64,000 nt of DNA from Amylostereum areolatum (lineage: Eukaryota; Basidiomycota; Agaricomycetes; Russulales; Stereaceae), in contig SAXG01000034.1 in the NCBI GenBank assembly GCA_012932865.1, forward strand, positions 310,001 to 374,000, in the 5' to 3' direction. This document shows, piece by piece, positions 43,682 to 53,295 of the stretch. A program made the translations under genes and the position numbers. Each line of letters starts with the position of its first letter. Position 1 is the first letter of the stretch. Below the pieces are notes generated by a model that made no database searches, was not told the DNA's origin, and saw only the letters and a program-made list of their open reading frames with translations.

Positions 43682-44359
43682 TCACCCAACCCAAGACGAC
43701 GCAGCGCCAAACCCGCTCCTTTCCGCGAGGTTGCCCATGTGGCGTGACACGACCTCCTCGAAGGCGCGGATGTAGGCTTCATATGCGAGGGAGCGCCAGC
43801 GACCGCCGATGCGAACAATCTCGGGGTTGACCTTCTGAGACAGGTAGTACGATGCACCCCCGATGCGGAAGGAGTGGCCATAGGTGTTGCCCCACCCGCA
43901 CCGCGAGGTGACCGAGTTGATGGTTTCGAGTGCGCTCTTGCGAACCAAAGGTCGGACTTGCCCCATGCCATCACGCCAACAGAATAGTGGGTCCTTGCCT
44001 CCAGCAGGCACCACTGCGGTTAGGTTCCGGAGAGCGTCGACGGCCGAGAGAGGGCCTGGTTGATCGACAATGGTGACCGTTTGCACCTCGCCTGGCTTCG
44101 CGGTTTTAGCGGTTGGAAGCGAGAGGCGAACAAGTTGGTTCTCAAAACTGTCTGTCGTGAACTCGATGTTTGATCGGGTGAGGTGACGAGCCAAGTTGAA
44201 TCCGGCGCGAGACTTGACAGAAATCTCGCCAAAGCGCATCATCCCCCAGAACGCGCAACACGCTGCTGCCCATAGGCACGCCCCGAAGGGGGTGCTGATG
44301 TCGAGGTGCTTGCGAATGGTGAATAGGATGTGGATAGTGTTAAGGACGGTCCTTATCAC
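43682..44359 (-). pseudogene. Tyrosine recombinase, C-terminal half
   Basis: An open frame of about 225 codons resembling the catalytic domain of fungal tyrosine recombinases (Crypton-type and related). Features: LWAAACCAFWGMMRFGEIS around the first catalytic Arg, GHSFRIGGASYYL (the HxxR box), GRWRSLAYEAYIRAF with the candidate nucleophile Tyr. The frame closes upstream at a stop just before 44359, and no ATG or clear 5' exon is found, so the core-binding N-terminal domain is missing. A TGAG acceptor-like site could admit an upstream exon, but none was recognised. The fragment ends 140 bp from the outer inverted repeat and 266 bp from the left end of the DUF6589 element. Confidence 0.75.
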
Positions 44360-44501
44360 GTGACAAGCGGCTCAGGCTACAGTACTCGTGCGTATGAGAA
44401 GTGGGATCAGGTGATCCAGACGTCTCGGTTATACGAAGGTTGTGTCACGGTTCGCCCTTTTGCTCCGCTTTTTCCTTGCTTTCTCGCGCTATCTGATCTC
44501 A

Positions 44502-44527
44502 CATCAGCAAATTGTCGAATTTTGTTT
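44502..44527 (+). repeat. Outer inverted repeat, left arm
   Basis: A 26-bp arm beginning CATCAGCAAATTGTCGAATT. It matches the reverse complement of 53751-53776 at 25 of 26 positions. The arms enclose the whole DUF6589-RecQ element plus flanks (about 9.3 kb). Confidence 0.7.
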
Positions 44528-44582
44528 CACCTTGTTAAGCCATGTTTTTGCTGGTTTTGGTGTTGCACAATAGGCTCGGACA

Positions 44583-44627
44583 CAGCCGTTTCTTTCAAAC
44601 TCCGCAACCTCCGTTCAGAAACGGCTG
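44583..44627. repeat. Hairpin at left element end
   Basis: CAGCCGTTTCT (44583-44593) and AGAAACGGCTG (44617-44627) are perfect 11-bp inverted arms around a 23-bp loop. The second arm runs into the first bases of the terminal inverted repeat. Confidence 0.65.
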
Positions 44628-44695
44628 GGCTGACTGGTAGCCATTTTGGCAGGCCCGCCAAAGATATGATCTGACTTAGCCAAATTTTGCTCTCG
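44625..44695 (+). repeat. Left terminal inverted repeat
   Basis: Starts CTGGGCTGACTGGT, has the near-palindrome TTTTGGCAGGCCCGCCAAAG, then ATATGAT and AAATTTTGCT. It pairs with 52118-52189 read on the other strand, differing at about eight positions plus one gap. Confidence 0.85.
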
Positions 44696-45453
44696 CGCGG
44701 CAGCTGGCCGCGACAAGATTTCCTCCCTCTCGTTGCTCGTCACCTCCGTCTCTCTAATTGTGTTTGTCATTCAATTATATAGTGATAAAAGAGGTGACAA
44801 CAAAAAGAAGTAAGGGGGAAAAAGCGAAATGAGACAATAACCGGGATAATTGGGTCTGCTGCTCGTCACCTCAGCCGCTTCCGGGACCAGGAAAAGGTAT
44901 ATTGTTTGCGCGAGATGGTGTATTGAAGCCATTTGAGGGGGTGCCGCTCTGCGCTGTGTATGTGGCTTGTTGCGGGGTGGTGGCTTGATAGAACACACCT
45001 GACTTGGGTGTGCAGGACGACCCCACACTTCCGGCTGTGGCTCTTTGTCATGAACGGTCTATAATTTTCTTTTTACTTTACATCGGTTACACGCTTTAGG
45101 ACTTATCGACTTATCACCGGTCCGACTCCACCTTGGCCCGGACCCGGCTCATCTATATCCCGCCCGGACCCACGTGACTCATCTCGGCCCGGGTCTGACT
45201 CCTTTCCCCTGACTCATGCTGTACAATACTGACTCATGCTGCGCTCTTTTACATACGACTGCTTACTTATACTTGGTCTGCTTACTGATCGCCGTGTATT
45301 GGTTGCTTACCTAAGTCTCTCTCCTCTTGTGTATATAAGGCTCGCTCTCGCTGTACATATTCCTTATCTCGAGCTAGTCAATTCTACCGACTTTGCTTGC
45401 TTTCCCTTGTCTGTCGCCGTGTCCGATCGGCTCCCCTCCGTCGTCCTCATCTT

Positions 45454-45819
45454 CTAGTCAGCTGTGTCGTAACTTGGTGCTGTCGCACTAGTCGTTGCTG
45501 ACACTCTTGCATAGGTGGCGGCTGGCGCGTAACCTCCGAATCCAGTGGGCCATGCATACTGCAAAGGTGCGGGTGCAGGTGTGTAGTAGTAGCCTGGGTG
45601 CACTACTGCATGTGGGGGAACGGAGGCTGGTGTGGGAGTCTGAGGATATGGCGCCGGCGCCGCGTACGGGTTATAAACGGGGTACACATTTGGCGTGACT
45701 AACCGCGCTGGAGCCTGCCCGGCGTTCCCTGGTGTCGACGCATGGGAAGATGCTGGTTCCTGCAGAGTTTGTTGGTGGGGGTGTGGGGAAGGAAGTGGAT
45801 GGGATGGCGGCCTCGTCGG
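45454..45819 (-). other. In-frame open extension beyond the helicase stop
   Basis: After the TGA, the same frame stays open to a stop at 45454, encoding a Pro/Tyr/Ala-rich tail (LVTPNVYPVYNPYAA, HPGYYYTPAPAP). Its compositional bias fits a coding C-terminus like the one just before the stop. So the TGA is probably a recent nonsense mutation, or it is read through; no GT-AG intron removes it in frame. Confidence 0.55.
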
Positions 45820-48155
45820 TCACGATGGTTCAATCTGGGGAAGACTGTACTGATACGATGCCTCGGGTGGACGTAGAGGCCTGCCCGTGTTGACAGGATC
45901 CCGTGAAGCGCTTGTTGCCAGGGTTTGAGCCAAGGCCGAAGGCGGGAGTGTCAATGTGGATGGTCTTGCGGCGGTCCTGGCGCGTTTGGAAGGCGAACCA
46001 TCGAGGGATGGCTCAGGTTCGGAAGGTGGAAGGGGGCGTTTCGTGGTAGAGGAAGAGGGTGTGGATGGGACGGGTTCTGCGCGGGAGAGGAGACGTGCCG
46101 AAGGAGACGGAAGTTGCGCGAGGATGAGGCTCGTGATCTCTGAGCCGTAAACTTCCCAGTAGTACCACTGCTGCTCGAGGAATGCTTTGATTGATGCCTC
46201 GTTCACAATCTTGATTCGTGCGAGTTTGTTGAGGGCATCATCGGGGAGGATGCATGGTGCGGTCAAGTAGGGGTTGTGCTGGTCGCGGATGAGGACATGG
46301 CTACGCCATTCACGAAGTGCGTCAGCGATGGGCTCGTACGGCATGTCTTCGTATCCTAGCCATGTTCGGGATGTCGTGCTTGGTGGTTTTTTCCCAGGTA
46401 GCGTGCGTGAGAGGAGTGCGGGGGCACAAATGTCGCAACACGGAACGACAGGGCCTGAGGACACAGAGTGTCAGCCACTCATTCAAGCAAAGCTAACGCC
46501 GGATGAGGAAAACGTACTCGAAGATGGATTGTTGAAGACATCACGGAGGATCTCGCGGCGGCATGTCGTTGCCTGAACGAAATGGTACATGCCTTCGGTG
46601 GCATCTGCTTTGTCTAAAGGCGGCTTCGGCGATGGTGTGATGATGTCGTCTCGTAGGGATCTGGCACCGCGAAAGCGGACGTGTGCACGCGCGTAGCCCT
46701 TCTCCGACGCAAGTGTCTTCTTCAGTTTGCACCTGTGCTGTTCACGAGACTTACCGGAGCTCTTGACAGGGTTTGTTGAAGGTGCCGGGGGATCTGCTTC
46801 GGTTGGGATAAAAACGGAGTATGCAGCAGGCTCGACGAGTAGAACCATAAGGCCAGTGCGGGTGGGATTGCGAGCAGCACGACCGGCGCACTGTACCAAG
46901 CTTGACAACTTCTCGGGGAGCTTCCATTGAACAATAACATCAATGTTGGGCACATTGCACCCCTATTTTGTGTGTCAGCGCTGTGTGTGAATAAACAAAA
47001 GGATGACGTACCATGCCCGCTGCATCCGTACAGACCAGGATGCGAATCTCACCGCTTCGAAAACCTGCCATCGCGCGACACCGGTATTCATGACCGTGCA
47101 CAGCATTGTACGGACGGATGGCATCCCAAAGATCCTGGGGAAGACGCTCGCGGAGGTGATCGATGATTTCAGCACCTGTGTCTATGTTGTCGGCATAGAT
47201 CCATGTCTTCTGGAGTTCGTCGCGGGATGAAATGGTCGATGGGACCACAAAGTCGAGGTCCGTGTATGACTGAAGGGGATTGTGGATCGCCCTCACCACC
47301 ATGGACACGTTGGCACGATCGTTGCCGAGGTTGCAATATTGGTAGGTCGGGGGAAATTGCAACTTGAGAGCAATGTCTTGCCGCACTCGCGCAGTTATGG
47401 ATGCTGACACTGCGATGATAGGGGTCCCACGCGGGAGAAACACGCGAATCATCCCCATTGAGCCGTATTTTTTGCGGAATAGTGCCCCCCAATGGGAGAT
47501 ACAGTGAGCTTCATCAACGACGAGCGAGTAGACGCGGCGGGTGAAGTCCGAGTTGCGAAGGACGTCGTTGATGAAGCGACGGGACTGCATCATTTCGGGA
47601 GATAAGAGAACAATGTTGTATTTGCCTTGACAGATGTCCTGGAAAGGGGTCAGGGAGGCGGGATGGGAAGAAGGGCAGGGGTCACACACCTGTACAACCT
47701 GAGGTGTCAAGCCGCCGTGGGCACTGTTGATCGCAATGGCGGGGAGCTTGTACTCGTCGCGGAATGTCTCAACCTACATTATATGTGAGACAGAGAGTGG
47801 TAGAGGTATTGCTCAGGGCACGTACCATTTCATCCTGAAGCCCGATGAGCGGCGACACCATCAACGTCACCCGGTCGCTGTTTTTCTTGAGAGCGTACGG
47901 GCCTGCAGCAATGGCTGTTTTTCCGCTTCCAGTAGATGCTTGACAAAGAGCGTCATGGCGCTCCTCCTGAGCTTGGACCATTTGTACTTGGAAATCGCGC
48001 GGTTCTTTGCCGCCGAAGAGGTCCTTCATGGACATTTTGAGTTCATGGATCTGGGTTGGCGTCATGGGCGATCCAGTCGAAGAGACTTGGGGTTGGCGTC
48101 GAGGGCGTTGTGCGTGCATGGCTTGGGGTCCACTTGGGACCATACGCTTGGTCAT
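45820..48155 (-). CDS. RecQ-like DNA helicase of the element
   Basis: Exons complement(45820..46454, 46518..46962, 47012..47638, 47690..47773, 47826..48155); 706 residues, in phase. Superfamily 2 motifs are visible in order: Walker A ASTGSGKTA, LMVSPLIGLQDEM, the DEAH box VVDEAHCISHWG typical of RecQ, TWIYADNIDTGAEI, and motif VI-type QCAGRAARNP after the third intron. The zinc-like CCDIC follows. The C-terminal 200 residues are Ser/Pro/Thr-rich with a nuclear-localisation-like SPSKRARTAAR. Helicases of this type are frequent in mobile and subtelomeric DNA of Agaricomycetes. The reading frame continues open beyond the TGA at 45820-45822 for about 120 codons. Start: first Met of the open exon, 223 bp from the partner gene's start. 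Confidence 0.85.
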
Positions 48156-48377
48156 GGTTGATCAGCGGTGGCGGTGGCGGCGGCACTCGAGTGAGACAGC
48201 ACGGGGTGGTGGAGAGACAGGAGGAAGCGAGCGAAACAGGCAGCACGCCACGTTTTCACTTGGCTCTGCTCGCTCTCCCACAACCACATTCTTGCCAGTC
48301 CCTTCAGCCCAACACCTAAAAAACGGTTCAGCATTTTCTCTTTTGCCTAGGAGAGAACGCGGGATCTACCAAGTGCC
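48156..48377. promoter_or_regulatory. Shared divergent promoter region
   Basis: The 222 bp between the helicase and DUF6589 start codons must hold both promoters. It has GC-rich runs (GCGGTGGCGGTGGCGGCGGC near 48163) and no clear TATA. Confidence 0.5.
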
Positions 48378-51300
48378 ATGGCTTCTACCAGCAGCGGACG
48401 CTCCAAACCGCCCGGAAAGGCAGCCCCTATCCCAGAGCTCTTCAACCCCGTCCCTCGGCGCAGGTCTTTCCCTTCTCCCCCCGCACCTAGCAGCCCCCTG
48501 TCTTCTCCCCCGTCTTCACCTACACCTCTTCATGTAAACGGCAGCCTGTCGCTCCCTTGGTTGACACTCGGTCTGCACGTTGAAGAACTTGTCGACGACG
48601 AGATTACACCGGTTGCGCCTTCAGCCGAGAGAGCTCGCTGGTTAGAAGGCGAGCAGCGCACGGAAGTTGAAGACACCGACACCGACCTGACACCCACAGA
48701 CGAGGACACTGATGCTGACATTGTATCCAACATCGATCCTGGTGCGACTTTCGGCGGCCAAGTCGCAAGCAGTGATGGCCTAGACGGGGTTCAGTTCTCC
48801 TCGCCGGTGCGCGATAAGGCGGGATCTTACCGAAAGCGGGGCAAAAAGCGTACAGCGAAAGCTGCGATGAAGAAAGCAGAAGAGGCACACATCCGGCAAG
48901 AGAAACACGAGGCTGAGAAGAAGCGTCAGCAAGAAGTGATGGAGGCGACGCTCGACAATCTCGAAGAGAACAATGTTACCTTCGGGACTCTGCTCGCGCA
49001 TGTCTTCGACGATGCGAATACGACCGCCGAATGGCGATGGAAGAATGTCTTCGTCACACCCGGGGTTCTTCGAAAGACCCTCGACTTCTGGGGGTCCAAG
49101 GCACCGAAGTCTACCCGTGAGGTTGTACACAAGTGGGTGAAGAAATACATGGGGGGAGTGCTAGGTCGGGAGGCCCAGGCTGCAAGCGAGACCAGTTTCT
49201 TGCGGATGGCGGGGTGCCTGATCGACGCATCATTCGCCGCCGCCTTCGGGTCAAGTGCGCTGACTGATGTCGTGGAAGAGTCTTGCCCTACCATCGTTGA
49301 GGCTGTTGAGTCAGTCATTTTAACCCAACGTCAAGTCGCGACGGCAGAAGACCCCAATAAACCGCAGCCTAAACACGATAAACATCTCGTGAGTGTTGCC
49401 TCTTCTCGACAAGAGACAGTGTGTCCTTACCTTCGTCTTAGGGGGCGATATGGACGACCATCAATCTGCTAGCAGCGAGAAGTCAGCGCAATTCATATAC
49501 ACGTCACGTTATGGGACTCTACCTTTACTCGACCGGCGCAACAAGGCAGCAGATCAGCGTCATGAACCGCTTCAATCTATCGGTCAGCTACGCTATGCTC
49601 GCCGGCAAGGGAAACAAGAGAACACACCTTGCAGACCAAGGTCCCAGTGCCTCCGACGAGACCAGTCCTGGAACTCCTACCGAAGAGCCTTCGCGTCGCC
49701 GAAAACACCGTCAAGCCAACGGATTGGGCACCCTAGAGCATCTATCGTTGCAGATGTGGAAGCTAGCGCGCACGGTAGCGCTGTCCCAAGCGATCATGGT
49801 CGTCTACGACAATATCAACATGGTGTGGAAGGTTGCGGAGCAAATCGTTGGACGTACCGGTACGAATATCTCTTCCACACTGTTCCGGAGTCGCCACTCA
49901 CCAACTCTTGGGGTAGACTCCCAGGAAAATGGTACCTGTGCCACCGTCATCCCGCTGTTCAATGCCAACAAGGAAGACTTACGCACCTTGGATGTCACCG
50001 AGCGATTTCTTGATGCACCACCCCTGCAACTCGCTGATATCGCGCCGAACGGGCCTCCAGATGAATTCTGGACGGAGTGCATGACGCACACCGTCCTTCG
50101 CATCGCCGTTCGTCACGGCGGACCCCAGCTACGCGCTTTCCGAGGGGAGCTTGTAAAGTGTGTTCCCACGAGCCCGGACAAAATTGAATTGCACCGGACG
50201 GATGTCCACCCACTCCCCGCGATGAATATTGACGAATCCTCGAAGACAGGTAACGCGGAGCTGATTGAAGCCGTTTTCAAGGAGCTGGGAGAGGATACGA
50301 GTTCGCCAGAGTTTGCGGCGACTATCAAGTTGATTGCAGGCGACCAACTCTTGATTGCGCGTCTTCACTCCGTGCACGCCGCACGTGCGGGTAATGAAGG
50401 AGGCGCCACGGGCCTTGGTTGGGCTCTCTTCATCCCAGGCCTCTTCCACTACAAGATCACGGCGGTCATTGGTCTGCTCAACACGCACTTCGGACATGTC
50501 AACCACGACCTTAGCAACCCCGCCTCTCTCGCCGCACACAACACCCTCCTTGAACGAAAGCCTATCGTTCTTACTTCTCTTCCCTCATTCCGAGTCTGTC
50601 GAGACCTCACCTTTGTCTCCCTCTATGCGCGCGTGTTACACTGCCTCCTACTCGTCTCCGGCCACAACAACCTGGACGACTTTGCGGAGAACCTCACATG
50701 GGAAGAACTGGAGACGTACGCGCGGCAAGTCGTTGATGTTTACACTGACACCCGTCACGTTGCAGCCCTCCGCCAGGCGCGCCAACTCAAGGGACCCAAG
50801 TTCGGCGACATGGTATACGAGAACGGCATCCTCTTCTTCCGTGACGCACTCATCCTACGAGAGTTCTCGGACGCGATCAAGAGCAGAGACTCCGGGCGTG
50901 TATCCGCCGTCCTGAAACATTGGGCTCTCGCCTATCGAGGTAGCGGTCGCAGCAAGTATAGGTACGAAACCATGTACTTTATCTACATGATGACCCATGT
51001 CTGGCCGAAGCCCATTGTGTACGCCACTTGTTCTCCTTGTTCTCTTTTAGATGCTTACACATTCTTGACCAGAAAAATTGTCCTTGATAACGTACTCGTC
51101 AATCCCACTGGCAAGCCCGACGCATGGCACGAAGTTGATTTGCTTCAAGAGCACCTCAACTTCTGGATAAAGGTGCGTGAACGATTCATTCGAGGCATCG
51201 ACGAGATGTTCATCGCGCTCGCAGAACTACTATCAGGCCCATGGAAGCGGTGCGTCCTGGGAGTGGCTGGCTACCATTGCGCCGTGCATCCAAGTCCTTC

Positions 51301-51994
51301 GCGTGCTGGCCACCTCCGTAAACGGGATGTTTGGAGCGAAGCAGGGTGACCGTCACGCGACGCCAGACCTGACAAACGACGTAGATGCTCTCATGACGAG
51401 TATCTGGGAGAATCAAGTGTACACGGTTTGTCTGGGCCGCGAGTTCGCTGACGACGACCCCCCTGCTGTTGACGTCATGGCCGCTGGTGCTCAGAGCTTG
51501 ACATGGGGTGTTCATTCCCCACTCAAGCAGTTCAACGAGCAGATGGCGACTCTGCGGCGCCGCCTCCGTGTTCAGCCGCTTGTGGACGAAACCACTGCCA
51601 ACAGCAGTGGGACCTCATCAGCCAATGGTACGTTAACCATGTCGCCGTTGCAATCACTCGTACTAATTTTATCTCAGATGTCGAGGCTGCCGTCATACCG
51701 CCTTATCTCTCGTCAACGAGTTCGGATCCAACCCCCCAAAGCAACGGATCTGCCCCTCACGCAGAGGTGGATGAAGCCACAGACCAAAACGGCGATGCGG
51801 AGGATCGCGACGTGGAGCCCGACGTAGAGCTGCTTGAAGATCTCGCCGAGGGCGTATCTCTCACGCTGAACTTGATCACGGCAGAGGATGTCGATTTGGA
51901 GATGGACAGAGATCTTGACGAGGATGACTTCGACGCTGGCGACGGCTCAGACTCGGAAGACGAACTCGACGATGATTTTAGTGACATAGACTAA
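48378..51994 (+). CDS. DUF6589 protein, candidate transposase
   Basis: Exons 48378..49388, 49442..51018, 51073..51172, 51225..51627, 51678..51994; 1,135 residues, all in phase (the 54-bp intron at 51019 could also be left in frame). A Pro/Ser-rich and acidic N-terminus with a Lys/Glu-rich helical stretch (about 160-200) is followed by the DUF6589 region: YLYSTGATRQQISVMNRF, VVYDNINMVWKV, KLIAGDQLLIARLHS, NLDDFAENL, FWIKNYYQAHGSGASWEW. The tail is very acidic. DUF6589 is a fungal domain of unknown function. Here the Asp of YDNIN, the Asp of AGDQL and a Glu of LLQEHLNFW are spaced as an RNase H-like D-D-E triad could be; that is my inference. Being the main intact gene between inverted repeats makes it the candidate transposase. 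Confidence 0.85.
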
Positions 51995-52117
51995 ATTTAT
52001 TTGCTTCTCGTACACCATCTCACCATATATAACTACTTCACACATTCCTAAGCCATGAAAGTGTGTGGAAGGAGGGAGGGAGTGAAAACGGGAGGACACG
52101 GCGGCTTGATGGTGACA

Positions 52118-52189
52118 CGAGAAGCAAAATTTTGCTAAGTCGAATCATATCTTTGGCAGGCCTGCCAAAACCGCGACCAGTCTGCCCAG
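52118..52189 (-). repeat. Right terminal inverted repeat
   Basis: Read on the minus strand it begins CTGGGCAGACTGGTCGC and continues with the perfect 18-bp palindrome TTTGGCAGGCCTGCCAAA, ATATGAT and AAATTTTGCTTCTCG, matching the left repeat. Confidence 0.85.
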
Positions 52190-52201
52190 GTGTTCGACAA
52201 A

Positions 52202-52277
52202 GTGACCCCCTTTCGTTCTCCGCTTGATCTCCGCTTCTTGGTAATCAGAGCCGAGTGCTTGGTGGGAAGGGGGTCAC
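52202..52277. repeat. Hairpin outside right element end
   Basis: GTGACCCCCTT (52202-52212) and AAGGGGGTCAC (52267-52277) are perfect 11-bp inverted arms with a 54-bp loop. It starts 13 bp outside the right terminal repeat, a position comparable to the hairpin at the left end although the sequence differs. Confidence 0.6.
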
Positions 52278-52654
52278 GTGTCAAACGCCTGGATCGAGGC
52301 TAGTTGCACAATGTGCGAAACAGTGCGAAACAGTCAAAATCTGCCAACGTGTCAACATGTCCCCAGGCCATGTCTGATTGCTCAACACGCATGAGTTGGC
52401 CAATGAACAGCCAATCTATACCCAATGAACACACAACTTAGAATCTCCAACAGTTATACAGGTTAGTAATAGCTGGCAACTTGGTACAACAGTTCAACTC
52501 AGTTTGAATACATTCAAAACATCATCGATCATCTATCAGAATCAAAACAAATTCCATTCAAAACAATGTAGCTATTCAATTCATACTAGGTAATGTAAAT
52601 ATTGTAGGCAGTAGGGTGCGGAACAACGAGGGTGCGGATGGAGAGACGCGTGCG
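52278..52654. other. AT-richer spacer
   Basis: Contains a tandem pair GTGCGAAACA at 52313-52332. No gene. Confidence 0.4.
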
Positions 52655-53295
52655 GGCGACGAGACAACGGGGGCAGGGGCGTCGAGAGCCAGGTGTTAGC
52701 ATTGGGGGTCACGAGGCCGTCGGCGCTGGGGGCGACACGCGTTGGCGTTGGCGGGCGACACACGCATGAGCGTTGGGGGATAACGAGACCGTAGGGAGTG
52801 ACGAGGGCATGGGGAGATACGAGGGTGTGGGGGGCGATGAAGCCGTCGGCGGTGACGAGGCCATCGGCGGCGGGGACAATGCGTGTCGCCATGGGGGCGA
52901 CAGGCGCGGGCGTTGAGGGCGACGGGCGTGGGCGTCGAGTGCGACGGTGAGATCGTTGGGGGGTGATGAGGCCGTGGGCCTTGTGGATGACAAGGGCGCG
53001 GGGAGTGACGAGGGTGTGAGTAACGAGGGCGTGGGGGGTGGGGGTGACGCACGTCGCCATGGGGTGACAAAGGCGTTGGCGTTGGGGGCGACGCGCGTTG
53101 GCGTTGGGGGTGACGCATGTGTTGGCGTGGAGGACGACGGGTGTGGGCGTTGAGGGTGGCGGCAAGGTCGTTGAGGGCGGCGGGGAAGTCATTGAAGGCG
53201 AGGGCAAGGGCGATGAGGGCAAGGGCGAGGGCGACGAGGGCAAGGGCGAGGGCGACGAAGGCGGCGGTGACGAAGGCAGCGGCAACGGCGACTAG
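52655..53295. repeat. Degenerate G-rich minisatellite
   Basis: Variants of an 18-21-bp unit built from GACGAGGGCGTGGGG-like blocks; the last part is more regular (GAGGGCAAGGGCGAGGGCGA, repeated from about 53205). Because the unit length is often a multiple of three, both strands show long low-complexity frames (Pro/Ser on one, Gly/Asp/Glu on the other). I treat these as repeat artefacts, not genes. Confidence 0.7.

Follow-up and report, generated by a model that had tools for sequence, protein, structure and literature searches.

The transposons with which the locus reported here is best compared are those of the AcademH lineage, which reportedly goes back to Kojima in 2020. According to the excerpted literature, AcademH is the helicase-encoding lineage of the Academ superfamily (PMC10045372, PMC3627910, PMC6416283, PMC10799480) and has target duplications of 9-10 bp versus 3-4 bp in AcademX (PMC10045372); a RecQ helicase is mentioned for Academ after Kapitonov et al. 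(PMC3627910), and fungal Academ copies bear PF00270/recQ domains (PMC6416283). The same body of excerpts describes KolobokH, a DDE transposase with a RecQ helicase in fungi, gives Kolobok a TTAA duplication and 5'-RR ends (PMC9587614), and puts the hAT target duplication usually at 8 bp (PMC12730594) and at 5-7 bp in some lineages. Here, we analyzed a window of 64,000 nt from Amylostereum areolatum (GCA_012932865.1, contig SAXG01000034.1, positions 310,001-374,000, forward strand). We are confident that positions 44571-52302 of this window are a DNA transposon with a 9-bp target duplication, most likely AcademH-like, in which a DUF6589 protein is the predicted DDE transposase and a RecQ helicase likely opens or remodels the ends. 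A sequence-only reading of this stretch had proposed a new transposon type. This is not supported and the type is probably not new, as the partnership of helicase and DDE transposon is already known in fungi and RecQ helicases have been published for both Academ/AcademH and KolobokH (PMC3627910, PMC10045372, PMC9587614, PMC6416283).

With a nested solo long terminal repeat (LTR) counted in, the complete element measures 7,732 bp, and its limits are given by a sharp left border in copies, the right border and empty sites. It starts with TAGGCTCG and ends with CGAGGCTA (up to 52302), and the 9-bp target-site duplication GTTGCACAA lies on either side (44562-44570 and 52303-52311). The left terminal inverted repeat, TAGGCTCG at 44571-44578 on the plus strand, matches at seven of eight positions the right repeat, which reads TAGCCTCG inwards (52295-52302, minus strand). 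The sequence-only reading had taken a pair of inverted arms for the element ends (44625..52189). The arms themselves are present at 44620-44691 and 52123-52194 (72 nt, 86% complementary, the longest among 32 inverted pairs in 9 kb), but they are subterminal, and the true termini are beyond the proposed ends by 54 bp on the left and 113 bp on the right. With the left end as query, the host genome yielded eight matches, namely seven left ends (the window's own counted) and the window's right arm. All seven left ends start abruptly with TAGGCTC, and their flanks differ except in C161 and C132, which share both flanks and are one duplicated insertion. C94 is a second full copy of the window's family (family 1) with its own 9-bp duplication. 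The finding of further copies with such ends, which had been suggested as a check, favors the transposon reading. It also bears on the idea, for which no support emerged, that two host genes are flanked by unrelated inverted repeats by chance: the identical sharp border in seven left-end copies, the full copy C94 with its own duplication and the empty sites described below have already refuted this explanation, which we rate as practically negligible.

Same-ended copies are further found at C56, C105, C161, C132 and C172 (loci L002, L004, L005, L007 and L073). Four of these span only about 0.16-2.1 kb and are therefore too short for the helicase and DUF6589 genes, and C132 has the flanks of C161 plus about 19 kb of additional DNA. 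Positions 48501-52302 of the window element and the C94 copy are 84% identical over 3,720 aligned bases, with 401 transitions, 153 of them in CpG context, and 208 transversions; CpG decay of a methylated repeat could account for this divergence.

Empty sites and target duplications, both called for by the sequence-only reading, were found. The target of the window element is a dispersed repeat (covering 44421-44570 and 52303-52461; part of the left flank, 44437-44503, falls in a second common short repeat as well, with 16 rows of matches). The joined flanks with one target-site copy (300 bp) gave 40 scored matches from 118 candidates: 22 span the junction, 16 are limited to the left part and two come from the flanks of the window element itself. 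An unoccupied target site is thus seen in at least 22 other places, and in all six of the junction-spanning sites that were aligned GTTGCACAA is present as a single copy and the element is missing. Similar evidence was obtained for related families. The family-2 insertion C141 has an empty counterpart, C181, which is 98% identical over 609 columns and is probably the other haplotype of the same locus. For the family-3 insertion C170, an empty site matches at 300 of 300 positions (100%; C167:115412-115711), and further ones match at 94-95%. For two family-4 insertions, the search of the genome for empty sites returned their own flanks only. A stretch of 9 bp in which C181 and the joined flanks of C141 differ was considered as an excision footprint of family 2 and dismissed, since it is no copy of the duplicated site and stands 5 bp beyond it.

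An exact target duplication flanks 12 of 16 two-ended insertions, being 9 bp long in three families and 8 bp in one. The 9-bp form occurs at the window element and six further insertions, that is in family 1 (GTTGCACAA in the window, GAGGATAGC at C94 and GATTAGAGT at C56), in family 3 (GGATCAAAT at C170 and GATAGGGAG at C145, where the element's first base is G instead of T) and in family 4 (AAGTAATCC and CGCTCATGG in the two of seven near-identical copies looked at). Among the two-ended copies of family 1 inspected, those at C105, C161, C132 and C172 are without a duplication. Family 2 provided CTCACAAC, CCGGCGAG, GGGAAATG, GATGAGGT and CATACCTT; three of these five fix the length at 8 bp, and the other two could equally be read as 9 because of an A on both sides. 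A sixth copy of family 2, C113, lacks the right end at the expected place. Unpaired ends were seen at C95 (one left and one right), C97 (right) and, in family 5, C70 (right end only). In families 1, 2, 3 and 4, the helicase and DUF6589 genes both lie within the mapped borders.

The DUF6589 gene occupies 48378-51994 on the plus strand. The single open frame of 1,135 codons proposed for it gave way to six predicted exons (48378-49388, 49442-49859, 49917-51018, 51073-51172, 51225-51627 and 51678-51994), modeled on splice signals and on similarity with a relative and encoding 1,116 amino acids. The family assignment was confirmed by a match of the main frame to PF20231 (E = 2.5e-110). A transposase role had been suggested for this protein, and the analysis agrees. 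For two distant DUF6589 proteins, the predicted structures resemble hAT (Hermes), P-element and RAG-type enzymes, with Hermes as the top match in both, and show an RNase H core that has a largely helical segment inserted ahead of the last acidic residue. The conserved D, D and E fall in the three motifs singled out beforehand (YDNIN, AGDQL and LLQEHLNFW) and in the window protein are the predicted catalytic residues D460, D619 and E870; H654 is conserved as well. In prediction, the protein thus combines the fold of a DDE (RNase H-fold) transposase with a conserved acidic triad at the expected places. Because the predicted structures match hAT, P-element and RAG enzymes and the D-D-E residues are conserved, DUF6589 is very probably the transposase of the element. 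The matches to P-element, RAG, Transib and IS256-type enzymes were rejected as signs of family membership and denote fold neighbors only. When PDB sequences were searched with a profile made from the DUF6589 alignment, no match was obtained at E up to 1.

At least 334 proteins were retrieved by the DUF6589 protein search at E up to 0.001, and those named matches of the protein searches that could be placed are Agaricomycetes. The nearest one belongs to Amylostereum chailletii (95% across the region searched, with 888 identical positions in an alignment of 949), which by itself would make an Amylostereum the probable host. No long DUF6589 proteins (at least about 1,390 amino acids, as in fusions with helicase or XPG nuclease) were present at E 0.01 among 6,050 candidates, and of 39 pattern matches in IMG/VR none was confirmed as a DUF6589 relative.

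The second gene (45820-48155, minus strand) encodes a RecQ-type helicase of 706 amino acids in five predicted exons (48155-47826, 47773-47690, 47638-47012, 46962-46518 and 46454-45820). This identification, too, stood up: the protein matches DEAD (3.9e-20) and Helicase_C (2.2e-14), the nearest solved sequences of its main exon are WRN, BLM, RecQ and RecQ5, and the motifs ASTGSGKTA and DEAHCISHWG are intact. A match to RecQ_Zn_bind (8.2e-4, 20.5 bits) stays under the 25-bit cut-off. As described before, the two genes are divergent and share 222 bp between their start codons (48156-48377). The statement that the element encloses only these two genes is right as to the genes and overlooks the nested solo LTR at 45046-45503. 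The pairing of DUF6589 with a helicase is the usual arrangement. When merged, 112 genome matches to PF20231 resolved into at least 58 loci and 72 matches to the window helicase into at least 49, of which 40 are paired with DUF6589; both are lower bounds since the search scores the best candidates only. A RecQ-type helicase lies within 8 kb of 40 of the 58 DUF6589 loci listed, whereas 1.5% each, or about 0.8 in total, would be expected at random; the 40 paired loci are not independent, as many represent one family several times or are alleles. Seven pairs are divergent as in the window, 32 convergent and one tandem, so that 39 have the genes on opposite strands; the tandem pair, at 7.7 kb, is probably due to chance.

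This close association could also mean that the helicase rather than DUF6589 drives movement, in a rolling-circle fashion. Helitrons, the rolling-circle model, use an HUH nuclease according to the excerpted descriptions. They are not known to have target duplications or terminal inverted repeats, and precise empty sites are likewise foreign to rolling-circle elements. Inverted ends, duplications and precise empty sites were all observed here, the duplications being exact and 8-9 bp long, and no HUH or Helitron Pfam domain was detected in the window pieces, in four DUF6589 relatives or in the helicase. A helicase-driven element is therefore very improbable.

The ends offer a possible site of action for the helicase. 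From the terminus inwards, the order is TAGNCTCG, a hairpin from nucleotide 11-13, the box TTTTGGC (families 1, 3 and 5) and the box GACTTAG. In the window, the left hairpin (44583-44627, plus strand) has the arms CAGCCGTTTCT and AGAAACGGCTG, and the right one (52186-52292, minus strand) the outer arms CCAGGCGTTTGACA and TGTCGAACACCTGG. The boxes lie within the subterminal arms, TTTTGGC at 44644-44650 and GACTTAG at 44673-44679 in the left arm (plus strand), and GACTTAG at 52135-52141 and TTTTGGC at 52164-52170 in the right arm (minus strand). Of the 12 ends from families 1, 3 and 4, 11 have GACTTAG, the one without it being the right end of C161; family 5 has GACTTCG and family 2 neither box. 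Hairpin-bearing ends were found in four of five families. In the stem test, 8 of 11 ends exceeded the 99th percentile of 1,314 random positions in the window, while one family-4 end stood at 83 of 1,314; at positions within the element the 99th percentile was 18 and the maximum 30. By a second stem score, the family-3 right end (60 of 1,222) and the family-4 end on the DUF6589 side (142 of 1,222) are unremarkable alone. In families 1, 3 and 4, free-energy z-scores ranged between -1.3 and -5.0. In family 2, both ends were ordinary in the stem test and had z-scores of +0.4 and +0.7, and no hairpins were recognized by either measure.

The box distances at the left and right ends agree only if the hairpin loops out. 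Uncorrected, TTTTGGC stands at a distance of 74 (left) and 133 (right) from the terminus in the window element and of 75 and 131 in family 3; minus the hairpin, the distance becomes 29 and 26 in the window (with C94 and C56 alike), 27 and 27 in family 3, and 25 at the single end of family 5. For GACTTAG, the corrected distances are 58 and 55 (window), 54 and 54 (family 3) and 63 and 63 (family 4; raw 113 and 108). C161, whose left stem is partly lost, has 37 and 26 minus the hairpin. When random windows supply the hairpin lengths, such agreement has a frequency of 0.03 for family 1, 0.004 for family 3 and 0.009 for family 4, values that cannot simply be multiplied because the families are related. 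We infer that, at end recognition, the hairpin loops out or is at least ignored, and it could be the substrate of the RecQ helicase. In such a scheme, transposase dimers would bind the subterminal boxes TTTTGGC and GACTTAG, and extrusion of the hairpin between terminus and boxes would bring about equal spacing at both ends. The DUF6589 transposase would cut at TAGNCTCG and insert with a stagger of 8 or 9 bp, and the RecQ helicase might unwind the hairpin ends or clear joints afterwards.

By the two features compared, RecQ helicase and duplication length, AcademH is most likely the best fit. In both cases, a fungal DDE-type DNA transposon has a RecQ-type helicase next to the transposase, and the 9-bp duplications of families 1, 3 and 4 lie within the AcademH range. 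Two features differ, namely the 8-bp duplications of family 2, a misfit, and the hairpin ends, which the AcademH descriptions, as excerpted, do not mention. Alternatively, DUF6589-RecQ elements might form their own superfamily, with a hAT/P-like fold and a helicase gained independently of Academ and Kolobok. This would suit the structure matches headed by Hermes, the hAT-like duplication length of family 2 (PMC12730594, in excerpt), the hairpin ends and the literature, in which nothing relevant on DUF6589 or PF20231 was found (PF20231 matches being judged by title). As the 9-bp duplication together with the RecQ helicase fits published fungal Academ/AcademH, we consider a separate superfamily unlikely. 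Somewhat more doubtful still is the fuller proposal of a distinct, very abundant Agaricomycetes superfamily of hAT-like DDE transposons, the end hairpins of which must loop out to set one terminus-box spacing and are extruded or resolved by the element's own RecQ helicase.

KolobokH shares the DDE transposase, the RecQ helicase and the fungal hosts, but here the duplicated 8-9 bp differ in sequence from insertion to insertion, the ends are 5'-TAG, and neither GTTGCACAA nor any of the 11 other duplications is TTAA. hAT (Hermes) and P elements have the fold closest to that predicted for DUF6589, and the usual hAT length recurs in family 2; in contrast, the window element has 9 bp, 8 bp being confined to family 2, and carries a helicase, and G or Q replaces the C/D of the C/DxxH site (G in 12 and Q in 13 of 28, with H kept). 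Pfam, applied to the window pieces with a limit of E 0.1, detected no hAT domain. In four DUF6589 relatives, no hAT or P-element Pfam appeared at E up to 10, a setting at which HMMER filters drop most weak matches; apart from one chance-level match in one of them, PF20231 alone was returned. MuDR/Mutator and ISCth4 (IS256 family) differ in that DUF6589 has no MULE transposase Pfam match.

A transposase role would give DUF6589, a widespread and unexplained family of mushroom-type fungi, a likely job; it would account for its spread, and many 'hypothetical genes' would then count as part of the mobile fraction. The presence of a RecQ partner in Academ-like transposons is puzzling, and the hairpin-spacing pattern offers a testable substrate for it. 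Active copies may exist, because in family 2 the insertion C141 has the apparently allelic empty site C181.

Several features near or within the element are outside the element proper. An open reading frame just beyond the left border (43682-44359, minus strand) has 32 other genome matches (26-45% identity) and no Pfam match, and resembles a tyrosine-recombinase fragment. It was rejected as an element component, since it lies beyond the borders and only 3 of its 32 other matches have a DUF6589 locus at 15 kb or less. The nested solo LTR (TG..CA) between the left end and the helicase gene is flanked by its own CTCTT duplication (45041-45045 and 45504-45508) and is missing from the C94 copy; pieces of the same repeat also occur in L050, L020, L012 and L058. 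To the right of the element, degenerate direct repeats extend over 52617-52996, where TGGGGG and ACGAGG units are abundant.

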